Source: Melioribacteraceae bacterium (lineage in GTDB: Bacteria; Bacteroidota; Ignavibacteria; Ignavibacteriales; Melioribacteraceae). From it: a stretch of DNA of 35,840 nucleotides. Positions 30,589 through 35,477 of the stretch are shown one piece after another. A model generated the notes under the pieces. It was given only the letters and a program-made list of their open reading frames with translations. It ran no database searches and was not told the origin of the DNA. Location: positions 1 through 35,840 of the forward strand of contig JALWGH010000169.1 of NCBI GenBank assembly GCA_027013735.1. Reading direction: 5' to 3'. Within the stretch, counting starts at the first letter, position 1; every line of letters begins with the position of its first letter. Both the position numbers and the translations under genes were made by a program.

Positions 30589-30945
30589 TTACATTAAATC
30601 AAAAACTAATTTTAAGGCTCGGTCTATTTCAGCAATTTTGTTTTCCGATAATTGCCCACGAATTGTAACTAATCTATGTTGATAATCTATAGGTCTTGTT
30701 TGGAGACAATCGGCAATGGATTTTTTCGTGAGTCCGTTTTCCTTTGAGGGTTCTAAAACAACATTAGTAAGAATTTGAGCTTTTTTCTCGCTCCAACCGG
30801 TTATTGGGACAACTTGAATTACAGGTACCTTTTGGTTGTAAACATCATTGGTAACAACAATACATGGTCTTATTTTACCTGTCTCGGAACCCTTAACCGG
30901 ATTTAAATCCACATCAATAACCATCCCTCTTTTAATTGGTTTCAT
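30589..30945 (-). CDS. MazF/PemK-type mRNA interferase toxin
   Basis: 'MKPIKRGMVIDVDLNPVKGSETGKIRPCIVVTNDVYNQKVPVIQVVPITGW...LTKKSIADCLQTRPIDYQHRL'. Start chosen so it overlaps the antitoxin stop as ATGA. Confidence 0.92.
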   Translation of the reverse strand: MKPIKRGMVIDVDLNPVKGSETGKIRPCIVVTNDVYNQKVPVIQVVPITGWSEKKAQILTNVVLEPSKENGLTKKSIADCLQTRPIDYQHRLVTIRGQLSENKIAEIDRALKLVFDLM

Positions 30946-31175
30946 AGGGGCCAATCCTCAATTGCTGAGTTCGTTAAATCTTTTAATTCCGAATCTTCTT
31001 GATAAATCTCGGCGTAAAGTTTGGCTGAATCTGCCAGCTTTTGTTTTTCTATTGATTTAATATAATTATCAATAGCTGAACGCACCAACGAACTTTTATC
31101 TTTGAATCCGAGCTCTTTATATTTGTTCAAAATTTCAATGTGTTTCTCATCAAAACTTATTTTAGCCTGTTGCAT
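30942..31175 (-). CDS. RHH-type antitoxin paired with MazF
   Basis: Short ORF 'MQQAKISFDEKHIEILNKYKELGFKDKSSLVRSAIDNYIKSIEKQK...' with GGAGG RBS upstream; ATGA overlap with the toxin. Confidence 0.82.
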   Translation of the reverse strand: MQQAKISFDEKHIEILNKYKELGFKDKSSLVRSAIDNYIKSIEKQKLADSAKLYAEIYQEDSELKDLTNSAIEDWPL

Positions 31176-31344
31176 CCTTACCTCCAATGGTTCCTATTTA
31201 AGCACCTATTTATAGCCCCAATATAAGAACTCCAATTTAAACTTCCAAATCAAAAAATAGCCAATATAACAGCGTAGCTTTTTACCCGATTGCCCTTATT
31301 CTTTTTACCGGATTCAGAAAGAAAAAGCCAGCAAGCAGGACTAT

Positions 31345-31776
31345 TCACCCTTTTGCAATTGATTTCCAAGTTTTTAAAAATTCCTCTGCAGTTAAAATTG
31401 TTATTTTGCTTTTCTTGTAATCACGTTTATTTCTCGTTAACAATAACTTGATTCCATTATTAACCGCTGTAAAATATTGTATCGCATCCTCAAAGTCATT
31501 AAAATCCGAGTTTAGTGATTGTTCAATTACTTTTTCGTCTATTGGCAAAATATGTACAAAAGTTTTTAATTTTCTCAAACTCTTTAATGCGGATGCGTTT
31601 GAATTTAATTTGCTTAAAAGATAATGAAGATTAGCAAATATTAAAGGGGAAGTAAATGCTGTAATTTCTCCCTTGTCAATTAGAGTAAATAACTTTGAAG
31701 AATAAACATAGTATGGCTCTCTTTTTGCAAGCAAATCTAAAATTACGTCGGAGTCAACAAATAATTTTGTAATCAT
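31345..31776 (-). CDS. PIN-domain toxin (VapC-like)
   Basis: 'LFVDSDVILDLLAKREPYYVYSSKLFTLIDKGEITAFTSPLIFANLHYLL...SDFNDFEDAIQYFTAVNNGIKLLLTRNKRDYKKS'. Confidence 0.9.
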   Translation of the reverse strand: MITKLFVDSDVILDLLAKREPYYVYSSKLFTLIDKGEITAFTSPLIFANLHYLLSKLNSNASALKSLRKLKTFVHILPIDEKVIEQSLNSDFNDFEDAIQYFTAVNNGIKLLLTRNKRDYKKSKITILTAEEFLKTWKSIAKG

Positions 31777-32021
31777 AAATATTTCTCTTCGAGATGCTTT
31801 CGATAAGTTTCTTTGATATCAATATCTTTAGGCAGTTTAATAATCCCTGATAATTCCAACACATTGGGAGAAATTTCAAGTTCATCCGTGTTTTCCTCCT
31901 CCGTTATCAGGTTAAAATAATTTTCTACTAAAGCCGAAAGACTCTTTTTATTTTTAACTGCATATTTTTTTGCGCGCTCAATTGCTCTCTTATTAAGCTT
32001 TAATGTTAGTTTTGCGTTCAT
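31773..32021 (-). CDS. Antitoxin, DUF6364-like, paired with PIN toxin
   Basis: 'MNAKLTLKLNKRAIERAKKYAVKNKKSLSALVENYFNLIT'; ATGA overlap (31773..31776) with the PIN gene. Confidence 0.82.
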   Translation of the reverse strand: MNAKLTLKLNKRAIERAKKYAVKNKKSLSALVENYFNLITEEENTDELEISPNVLELSGIIKLPKDIDIKETYRKHLEEKYL

Positions 32022-32185
32022 TTGATTTACCGCCTTAATACGTATTAAAAGACACACAAAAGTACGTATCCGCCTCTAAAAAATCAAGAACTTTTTAAAT
32101 TGCATAACTGAATGTTTATTTGCCATCGGATTTAAACTTGTTCTAATGGTCTAATTTCTTTTATTAAAAATAAAATTTAAAATTA

Positions 32186-32215
32186 CCGGGGAAAGCGAAA
32201 AGACGCTCTCCCCGG
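32186..32215 (-). terminator. Terminator-like hairpin after the DUF5320 gene
   Basis: CCGGGGAAAGCGAAAAGACGCTCTCCCCGG. Confidence 0.6.
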
Positions 32216-32223
32216 CAACGGAG

Positions 32224-32487
32224 CTACTCTCCTAATTCGGAAAGTCTTTTTCTCACGGAATCGATTTCCGCCTGTACATCTTTCCTGTGGAGTTCGAGTC
32301 TGTCAAGGTACCTTTCGAGCCATTCTTTTTCACTGCCGAAAGGATAGCCGTAGTCAGCCCAATAGCCGCGACCAAAGCCCCAGCCTCCGCCGAAGCCCAT
32401 TCCGCGGCCTCTTCCGAAACCGGCACCTCTGCCGTAGCCGGCTCCTCTTCCGAAGCCCCATCCGTTTCCATATCCGAATCCGAACAT
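32224..32487 (-). CDS. DUF5320-like Gly/Arg/aromatic-rich protein
   Basis: 'MFGFGYGNGWGFGRGAGYGRGAGFGRGRGMGFGGGWGFGRGYWADYGYPFGSEKEWLERYLDRLELHRKDVQAEIDSVRKRLSEL'. Confidence 0.8.
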   Translation of the reverse strand: MFGFGYGNGWGFGRGAGYGRGAGFGRGRGMGFGGGWGFGRGYWADYGYPFGSEKEWLERYLDRLELHRKDVQAEIDSVRKRLSELGE

Positions 32488-32528
32488 TTTAACCTCCTTT
32501 ATTTTGTTTTTATTTTACTATTAAGCTA

Positions 32529-32550
32529 TTGCACAATATTGCAATAATAC
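32529..32550 (+). promoter_or_regulatory. Candidate ArsR operator, copy 1
   Basis: TTGCACAATATTGCAATAATAC, 21/22 match to the reverse complement of 33382..33403; contains TATTGCA-N6-TGCAATA (32527..32546). Confidence 0.65.
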
Positions 32551-32553
32551 TTC

Positions 32554-32582
32554 AAAAAAAGAGGGGCGTAGCCACCTCTTAA
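32554..32582 (-). terminator. Intrinsic terminator after the NifX-like gene
   Basis: Minus strand TTAAGAGGTGGCTACGCCCCTCTTTTTTT. Confidence 0.75.
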
Positions 32583-32998
32583 TCTGTTCTTTCTCTGTAA
32601 AGATTAATCAATTCTCCTTTAGCGTAAGTAAAAGCCGCTTCGTCGGAATCAAACTTATCAGTTAAAACCACATCGAGTCCGGCTGATTTAAAACTTTGGT
32701 AAGCTCCGGACCCCATTCCGCCTGCAATTAAAGCGTCGCAGTCGGAAATTTCCGCAGCCATCATCGAGTGGCGGTTCATTGCGTCGGGACCGAAACCGTG
32801 CCTGCCCTGTGCATCGTAGTGTTCGTGATTGCCGTGCGAATGTTGTCCCGCATTGCCGGCAAAATGCCCCGTACCTCTCTGTCTCATCTCTACATCCCGA
32901 AGTTGTCCATCTTCAAAGTGGTAAATTTTATAGTAACGCGATCTTCCGAAGTGTTGACTAATTGTTCGTCCGTCGTTTGTAACAATTGCAATTTTCAT
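32579..32998 (-). CDS. NifB/NifX (dinitrogenase Fe-Mo cofactor biosynthesis) family protein with His-rich insert
   Basis: 'MKIAIVTNDGRTISQHFGRSRYYKIYHFEDGQLRDVEMRQ' and 'AAEISDCDALIAGGMGSGAYQSFKSAGLDVVLTD'; insert 'GHFAGNAGQHSHGNHEHYDAQGRHGFG'. Confidence 0.9.
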   Translation of the reverse strand: MKIAIVTNDGRTISQHFGRSRYYKIYHFEDGQLRDVEMRQRGTGHFAGNAGQHSHGNHEHYDAQGRHGFGPDAMNRHSMMAAEISDCDALIAGGMGSGAYQSFKSAGLDVVLTDKFDSDEAAFTYAKGELINLYRERTD

Positions 32999-33013
32999 TT
33001 TGTCTGCTCCTTT

Positions 33014-33361
33014 CTACATAAAATAATCTTGAAAATTCATAAACCAATCTTTTGTGATTTCGGTTGCAAGGTCAATTAACTTAAGAACTCTTTTATCAGC
33101 AAGATTAAAAAACATTGTTACGCCTTCTTTACGTGCGTAAACAATTCCAACGTTTCTTAATAACATCAAATGCCGGGAAACAACCGACGGGTCCAAGCCG
33201 AGCAATGCAATTAACTCTGCAGAACTTTTTTCTCCGTCCTTCAAAGCTTGAATAATTTTTATTCTCGGGTCGCTTGCAAGAGCCATAAAAAAACGACTCC
33301 GCGGGTCCATCATCGGACCGCCACCCATCATCCTACCGCCGCCTCTGTGCCTGTGTCTCAT
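33014..33361 (-). CDS. ArsR-family transcriptional regulator with Met/His/Arg/Gly-rich N-terminus
   Basis: 'SRFFMALASDPRIKIIQALKDGEKSSAELIALLGLDPSVVSRHLMLLRNVGIVYARKEGVTMFFNLAD'. Start placed at MRHRHRGGG (33361); the track's TTG start would run into the palindrome. Confidence 0.9.
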   Translation of the reverse strand: MRHRHRGGGRMMGGGPMMDPRSRFFMALASDPRIKIIQALKDGEKSSAELIALLGLDPSVVSRHLMLLRNVGIVYARKEGVTMFFNLADKRVLKLIDLATEITKDWFMNFQDYFM

Positions 33362-33381
33362 TCTCTCTCTGTTGCTTTGTT

Positions 33382-33410
33382 GTATTATTGCATTATTGTG
33401 CAACAATAAT
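33382..33410 (-). promoter_or_regulatory. Candidate ArsR autoregulatory operator, copy 2
   Basis: Reverse strand TTGCACAATAATGCAATAATAC (33382..33403), overlapping ATTATTG-TGCAA-CAATAAT inverted repeat (33392..33410), about 30 nt upstream of the ATG. Confidence 0.65.
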
Positions 33411-33540
33411 AATATTATTTTTTAAATTTGTCAAGAAAAAAATAAATCAAATTGTACAAGGTTACTCCATAGATTGCGAGTCCCGTAACTTGCGGTATGC
33501 TACGGTTTAATCTCGATTCAGCACCCCAAATCTATTCTAT

Positions 33541-33583
33541 CGCAATGAATGACGTACCGCAGGATGCGGGACAAATGACAAAT
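33541..33583. repeat. Dispersed repeat, copy 2 (related to 20229..20293)
   Basis: Reverse complement ATTTGTCATTTGTCCCGCATCCTGCGGTACGTCATTCATTGCG. Confidence 0.6.
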
Positions 33584-33651
33584 CATTCAATTGCAACTCT
33601 GTTTACTTATCTCACCCTCCTATTTTGCACTTTCCACTAAATAAGTCTTGT

Positions 33652-33914
33652 ATCCAATAATGCACTCCTCCAATCATCCAAGAGTCCCGTTTGGGCAAGT
33701 GCGCAAGTGCTTTTGGATGCATGGATGATCCGCCTTCTCCCGCATTCTGCGGAATTCGGCGCGACAGGTTGGATGAATGGATGGAATTAACACAATTATT
33801 GCGCAACAATCATTTTTCTCTGTTAACTGTTCTCTGTTCTCTGGAGGGGCATCTTACGTCTAGCGTCTAGCCTCTCGCGAAAAGAAATTTCTTATTTCTT
33901 CTTTCTTATTATTC
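33652..33914. repeat. Composite degenerate repeat, copy C
   Basis: 8-nt ATCCAATA ATGCACTC CTCCAATC ATCCAAGA (33652..33683); TTGGATGC ATGGATGA (33713..33728); TTGGATGA ATGGATGG (33769..33784); 7-nt TTCTCTG TTAACTG TTCTCTG TTCTCTG (33816..33843); CATCTTA CGTCTAG CGTCTAG CCTCTCG (33850..33877); ATTTCTT ATTTCTT CTTTCTT ATTATTC (33887..33914). Confidence 0.9.
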
Positions 33915-35477
33915 AAAGAGTTTTCCCAATGCTTCGCTGAGCAAATCGGGATTAAGAGGTTTAGTTAAAATTGCATCGGAGCCGAGATTCTCGTATTCTT
34001 TCTTTAACTTGTCGTCTAATTTACCCGAAATAATAATAATGGGGACTTGGTTATCCGCCTTTTTTTTGAAAGCTTCAATAAGTTGTTTCCCGTTCATCAA
34101 AGGCATTTCGTGATCGGTGATTAACAATGAAGGCAGGTCTTTCTCAAGATGAGTAAGAGCTTCGTAACCGTTGGAAGCCTCAATAATGTAACTATCGGGA
34201 ATGTATTTAAGGATAAGGCGTTTAATTAATCGCCTGCTTTCGGCATCGTCTTCCACAATCAAGATTTTGTTCTTCGCTTCAGGCAAAGTAATATGAAACT
34301 CCGTACCCTCTCCTTCCTTTGAGTAAAACCAAATGTTTCCGCGGTGTTTGTCAATAATTTCTTTCACGAGAGTAAGTCCAAGCCCGCTGCCCTTTTCGCC
34401 TTCCGTACCGTCGAGGGAAAATTTTTCGTCCAGCCGGAAAATCTTGTGCTGCTCTTTTTCAGGAATGCCAATCCCCTCGTCTCTGATTACCAGCTCTATT
34501 ACTCCCTCCTTAAACTTATTTCCCGTAACAAAAATTCTTTTACCCCTTGGAGTGAATTTAATTGCGTTAGCCACAAGATTTTTAACCGCCTCGTGAAACA
34601 TTCTTTGGTCTGCCAGCACGTAAAGGTTATCGGGGATATCGGTTTTGATTTCAACCTCTTTGCGCACGGCATTGCCGGTAAGGACTGAAATAGCAGAGCT
34701 GACAGCTGTTTTTAAATTCAAGCGCTGTGGCTGGATTTTAATCTTGCCTGTCTGTAAACGGGACCAATCGAGCAAATCGTTAATAAGCTCCAGTTCCGTT
34801 TTTGCAGCGTCGTAAATGTATTCGAGATATTCGCGTTTTTCCTCTTCCGGCAAATCCGGTTCTTTTAGCAAAATTTCCGAAAAGCCGAGTAAGGAGGTAA
34901 ACGGCGAACGCAAATCGTGGGAAACAATTGAAAGAAATTTGTCCTTAATCTGTGCTTGGCTCTTTAGCTGTTCGTTAATCTTTACCAAATTGCTTTCGCG
35001 TTCAATAAAATCGCTGACATCAAACAGTGCGCTTTCTATTCTGATTATTTTCCCTGAGGCGTCGGCTATTTGGGAAAATATTTCCCTAAGCCAAATAGTT
35101 TTGCCTTCTTTTGTTTTAATCCTGTAATTAATTGTTTTGTAGCCGCTTGTTTGCTTTTCGCGTAGTCCTGTCTGGACTTTTTTAATTTTTAAAATATCTT
35201 CTTTTGCAATCAGGGAGTTAAAGCCGGCGGGCAGTTTGGATATTTCCTCCGCCGTGTACCCCGTAATATTTTTAATTGAATCGGAAAAGGATGTGACAAA
35301 TTTTCCATCGCCTTTGTACTCTTGAATCTTTAGGAAAAAGCAACAGGAGTTTTCGCCGAATTTTTTGATTAATTCCAACGACTCCTTTGAAGAAAAGGAA
35401 TTCATTAACAGGATAAGTTCTTCCGCAACTTTCCCGTCCTTAACCAACTCCCTTATTTTTTCGCCGATGGAATCCAA
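33909..35477 (-). CDS. Hybrid PAS sensor histidine kinase with C-terminal receiver domain
   Basis: PAS/PAC 'YRIKTKEGKTIWLREIF', HisKA 'FLSIVSHDLRSPFTSLLGFSEILL', HATPase 'LVANAIKFTPRGKRIFV...GSGLGLTLVKEIIDKHRG', REC 'NKILIVEDDAESRRLIKRL...LLITDHEMPLMNGKQLIEAF'. Confidence 0.95.
   Translation of the reverse strand: MDSIGEKIRELVKDGKVAEELILLMNSFSSKESLELIKKFGENSCCFFLKIQEYKGDGKFVTSFSDSIKNITGYTAEEISKLPAGFNSLIAKEDILKIKKVQTGLREKQTSGYKTINYRIKTKEGKTIWLREIFSQIADASGKIIRIESALFDVSDFIERESNLVKINEQLKSQAQIKDKFLSIVSHDLRSPFTSLLGFSEILLKEPDLPEEEKREYLEYIYDAAKTELELINDLLDWSRLQTGKIKIQPQRLNLKTAVSSAISVLTGNAVRKEVEIKTDIPDNLYVLADQRMFHEAVKNLVANAIKFTPRGKRIFVTGNKFKEGVIELVIRDEGIGIPEKEQHKIFRLDEKFSLDGTEGEKGSGLGLTLVKEIIDKHRGNIWFYSKEGEGTEFHITLPEAKNKILIVEDDAESRRLIKRLILKYIPDSYIIEASNGYEALTHLEKDLPSLLITDHEMPLMNGKQLIEAFKKKADNQVPIIIISGKLDDKLKKEYENLGSDAILTKPLNPDLLSEALGKLFE

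Follow-up and report, generated by a model that had tools for sequence, protein, structure and literature searches.

Two inverted copies of a short near-palindrome border an arsR-nifX-like gene pair in the 35,840-nt stretch of Melioribacteraceae DNA analysed here (the window). The question they raise is whether they are operators through which the ArsR protein controls its own gene and its neighbours. A first-pass annotation had proposed them as an ArsR operator serving a three-gene metal-type cluster. Sequence comparison bore out the repeat itself: the letters at 32529-32550, TTGCACAATATTGCAATAATAC, match the reverse complement of 33382-33403, TTGCACAATAATGCAATAATAC, at 21/22 positions in inverted orientation, and a repeat search extended the pair to 35 nt at 83%. 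The placement also held, with one copy upstream of the DUF5320 gene, the other upstream of arsR-nifX, and all three genes on the minus strand.

The palindrome pair in the cluster and in the genome

The near-palindrome has the consensus TTATTGCA-N6-TGCAATAA and is better drawn as a 22-bp element, which gives the following layout.

33406..33434, minus strand: arsR promoter, with a -35 TTGACA at 33434-33429, a 17-nt spacer and a -10 TATTAT at 33411-33406
33385..33406, minus strand: candidate operator 1, TTGTTGCACAATAATGCAATAA, kept in 9/9 ortholog promoters
33014..33361, minus strand: arsR, 115 aa, ArsR/SmtB-family winged-helix protein (PF01022, NF033788, fold, alignment)
32579..32998, minus strand: nifX-like gene, 139 aa, Nitro_FeMo-Co (PF02579) domain with a His-rich insert (PF02579, alignment)
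32554..32582, limits approximate, minus strand: terminator-like hairpin and T-run after nifX (sequence AAGAGGTGGCTACGCCCCTCTTTTTTT, fold of the region)
32526..32547, minus strand: candidate operator 2, TTATTGCAATATTGTGCAATAG, found in six genomes, one copy cut by a contig end
32224..32487, minus strand: DUF5320 gene, 87 aa (PF17253, composition)
32182..32219, minus strand: strong terminator-like hairpin after DUF5320, 16-pair stem with 9 G-C pairs

With a terminator-like hairpin after nifX, the cluster appears to be split into two transcription units, each having its own candidate operator; similar hairpins or T-runs follow nifX in relatives. Operator 2 lies between this hairpin and the DUF5320 gene, and its better-conserved half points to DUF5320, the opposite way to operator 1. 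No recognisable or conserved promoter was found at operator 2 in the window or in the relatives. Read by eye, the surroundings hold, upstream of arsR, a gene resembling a PAS-type sensor histidine kinase that has a receiver domain at its C-terminus (33909-35477), and two toxin-antitoxin-like gene pairs (30589-31187 and 31345-32057), which encode MazF-like and PIN-domain-like proteins, each with a small partner.

Frequent occurrence away from the cluster had been named beforehand as an outcome that would count against an operator. The window holds two matches to the pattern TTGCA-N6-TGCAA, where shuffled sequence would give 0.06, and the whole 3.12-Mb genome adds only one more, TTGCACGCCTATGCAA, with an unrelated spacer. 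Longer forms separated the two sites further. A genome scan with TTGCACAATANTGCAATAAT allowing up to three mismatches found both cluster sites with none and all five remaining matches with three; the 22-bp palindrome matched both cluster sites with one mismatch and five other places with two, and its backwards control pattern gave three per strand. Nowhere else in the 3.1-Mb genome did the 22-bp form match with fewer than two mismatches. Outside the cluster, the best matches to the longer motifs were thus two or three mismatches away, much as for the backwards control. The adverse outcome named beforehand therefore did not occur, and these scans revealed no wider regulon. A search of the literature found no link between any ArsR and this palindrome motif.

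Conservation of the palindrome with ArsR

ArsR searches turned up close orthologs in four of the family's genomes and at nine named loci, with those four genomes counted among the nine; the loci include Melioribacteraceae, Ignavibacteriales, BMS3Abin04, BMS3Bbin03 and a Bacteroidetes MAG. The window's own genome was the only one of 297 genomes of the phylum to yield this ArsR at E<=1e-20, and the clade is therefore rare. Nine arsR promoters, the window's included, could be compared (L047 and L048 belong to one assembly, and L048, which begins inside arsR, was left out); their genomes are related, and the conservation counts are not fully independent.

The window's arsR promoter, TTGACA-17-TATTAT, matched 11/12 consensus positions in a consensus scan, and the layout TTGACA-17-TAnnnT is kept in most orthologs. 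Directly past the -10 box, the 22-bp motif stood in all nine promoters with 0-2 mismatches. In the window its core (33388-33403) begins after a gap of 2 nt downstream of the -10 box; since the core lies this close, the expected start of arsR transcription, near 33399, would fall inside it. The G028 promoter has no clear -35; with its -10 aligned as TATCTT, the gap is again 2 bp. A palindromic candidate operator overlapping the gene's own promoter, the arrangement looked for in ArsR/SmtB repressors, was thus found by sequence and conservation in 9/9 orthologs.

The half of operator 1 reading ATTGCACAA is nearly invariant among the orthologs, and TTGCACAA fully so; the other half varies. In S144_13 the operator is the perfect palindrome TTATTGCACAATTGTGCAATAA, which suggests that the ideal half-site would be TTATTGCACAA. 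Six genomes carry operator 2: the window's own, G001, G019, BMS3Abin04, BMS3Bbin03 and G002, where the contig end cuts the copy; it is absent in G028 and YP1, in which DUF5320 stands close behind nifX. The G019 cluster lacks nifX and retains arsR, both sites and DUF5320. At the BMS3Bbin03 locus L058, an extra near-perfect palindrome, TTCTTGCACAATTGTGCAAAAA, lies outside the cluster (G333:C41:31316-31337), with no obvious target gene adjoining.

As controls we took 15 loci from class-level relatives in which nifX-like and DUF5320 genes share one locus without such an ArsR. The motif was found at the cluster in 0/15 of these loci, each about 3.2 kb, a length that more distant sites would escape; in one of them (L097) a two-mismatch match lies about 1.3 kb from the nifX-like gene. 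A Fisher comparison of 9/0 against 0/15 counts related genomes as independent and is to be read loosely only. With 9/9 loci carrying the motif where the ArsR is present and 0/15 where it is not, by sequence the motif tracks ArsR rather than nifX or DUF5320. Among the neighbours of distant ArsR relatives (L016-L040), a crude motif found no NifX-like protein.

These distributions bear on whether the sites might belong to another regulator, their link to ArsR being coincidental. Palindromes of the TTGCA type are in use by several regulator families, and the assignment to ArsR rests on sequence comparison. However, the sites are confined to the cluster in this genome, present wherever the ArsR is, and missing from DUF5320/nifX clusters that lack it; we judge ownership by another regulator very unlikely.

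The encoded proteins and the metal label

The ArsR protein passed the curated cut-offs for ArsR/SmtB winged-helix proteins (PF01022, 43.9 bits against 22; NF033788, 63.9 against 55), and its predicted fold matches SqrR, Rv0081, SmtB and CzrA. It scored far below the cut-offs for the CmtR (44.5 against 150) and TsoR (43.1 against 115) equivalogs, for BigR (36.9 against 155 bits) and for SdpR. By sequence and fold, the solved proteins nearest to it are HlyU, Rv0081, SqrR, CzrA and SmtB; HlyU, SqrR/BigR and Rv0081, the closest, are not known as metal sensors.

With the autorepressors SmtB, CzrA and CadC, the window protein shares the winged-helix family and fold and an imperfect palindrome at its own promoter. 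Unlike them, it lacks the alpha3 Cys and alpha5 Asp/His metal ligands and has no cysteine at all, and the genes under its predicted control are nifX-like and DUF5320 rather than an efflux pump. The protein's last long helix (residues 91-109) contains no His, and the conserved His64 belongs to the recognition helix. Without Cys or a last-helix His, the usual metal sites and the cysteine switch through which SqrR and BigR sense are absent. The N-terminal arm is conserved and rich in Met, Gly and Arg, with invariant Met residues; we speculate that it contacts AT-rich flanks or binds a ligand.

The three-gene cluster proposed in the first-pass annotation is real and conserved. "Metal-type" is not supported for the regulator, which has none of the known alpha3 or alpha5 ligands, and the window shows no metal-resistance-type neighbour of the cluster, which leaves the label on weak ground. 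Such genes adjoin the cluster in some relatives only. As read by eye from the sequences, these are a metal-transporting P-type ATPase-like gene in G019, an arsenic-type ArsR together with a transporter resembling Acr3 in BMS3Abin04, and a chromate-transporter-like gene in G001; this neighbourhood backs the label weakly. In two relatives, L045 (2434-5233) and L046 (3386-3754), the cluster has as neighbour a further ArsR, which carries an arsenic-type ICVCEM motif; in L045 an Acr3-like transporter accompanies it.

The NifX-like protein scored 52.1 bits with PF02579 (cut-off 26.3), which places in it the IssA-type IPR003731 domain. Against NifX itself (TIGR02663) it reached 22.5 bits with a cut-off of 112, and we therefore use the label "NifX-like" only. 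In this protein (gene at 32579-32998 in the window and 340-753 in L048) a variable His-rich insert separates the domain halves, with a long His run in L048; the insert is possibly a metal-binding loop. The DUF5320 protein scored 30.7 bits with PF17253 (cut-off 27). Its N-terminal part holds 22 Gly, 14 aromatic and 5 Arg/Lys residues of 49, its C-terminal part is charged, and the literature on DUF5320 yielded unrelated mentions only.

IssA stores iron and sulfur as thioferrate, aided by a Gly/aromatic/cationic tail with 15 Gly, 14 aromatic and 7 cationic residues of 70 (PMC5524996), and the NifX-like domain family also includes the MrpORP proteins (PMC6345978). The Di-Nase/NifX-like domain is common to IssA, ORP/MrpORP and the window protein. 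The latter has a pI of 6.1, with neither the high pI nor the Gly-rich cationic tail of IssA; a Gly-rich part of similar make-up is found here in a separate protein, as the N-terminal part of DUF5320. It is possible, and speculative, that the NifX-like and DUF5320 proteins form a split IssA, a thioferrate-type store. The fuller proposal, that a cysteine-free ArsR, lacking known metal sites and possibly sensing through its Arg/Met-rich N-terminal arm or an iron-sulfur-related ligand, controls such a split store, we regard as unlikely. The regulator also differs from that of the D. vulgaris orp operons, which are under sigma54/IHF regulation (PMC3897727).

Proposed control and competing readings

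We conclude that the palindromes are very probably operators of the ArsR encoded at 33014-33361, acting in local autorepression and in control of its neighbours. The operator and autoregulation proposed at the outset are well supported in silico by the start-site position in 9/9 orthologs, by the motif's tracking of ArsR and by its confinement to the cluster. The second site in six genomes and the G019 cluster, which keeps arsR, both sites and DUF5320 without nifX, also speak for this reading; against it weigh the failure to find a recognisable promoter at operator 2, the absence of that site in G028 and YP1, the relatedness of the genomes compared and the L097 match. The arrangement is ordinary in kind for an ArsR-type repressor. 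In the scheme that we infer for ArsR binding, for repression rather than activation, for the role of operator 2 and for the existence and nature of an inducer, an ArsR dimer on operator 1 would sit over the start of transcription, immediately after the -10 box, and block RNA polymerase, so repressing arsR-nifX. A second dimer at operator 2 would control DUF5320 separately, by blocking either a weak local promoter or readthrough beyond the nifX terminator. An inducer would free the repressor.

The same two sites, about 860 bp apart, could serve looping, or ArsR could be an activator, like its close solved relative HlyU, which is described as having no metal site (PMC4330345). Operator 1, however, lies over the expected transcription start, a repressor position, and G028 and YP1 get by with a single site; activation or looping is highly improbable.

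Could the palindromes instead work as RNA, forming a hairpin in the arsR and DUF5320 leaders that affects translation or stability? Arms of 5-8 bases around a 6-base loop could pair, and readthrough could transcribe site 2. Against this, the expected arsR start would fall inside the palindrome and leave the left arm out of the transcript, the changes in G028, G002 and YP1 disrupt pairing without compensation, and an Rfam search of 31000-35000 returned no match. We rejected this reading, which has hardly any probability, on the expected start and the uncompensated changes. That the pair is a functionless chance repeat or sequence artefact is almost certainly wrong: the intergenic sequence is AT-rich, but nine genomes keep the motif at fixed positions, and its count in the window far exceeds the shuffled expectation.

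If the palindromes are operators of the local ArsR, the reading we prefer, an uncharacterised ArsR clade of Melioribacteraceae and their relatives would gain a specific operator and regulon, and the NifX-like/DUF5320 pair, so far little studied, would have a switch of its own. The identity of the inducer would then be a direct route to the function of the NifX-like and DUF5320 proteins.
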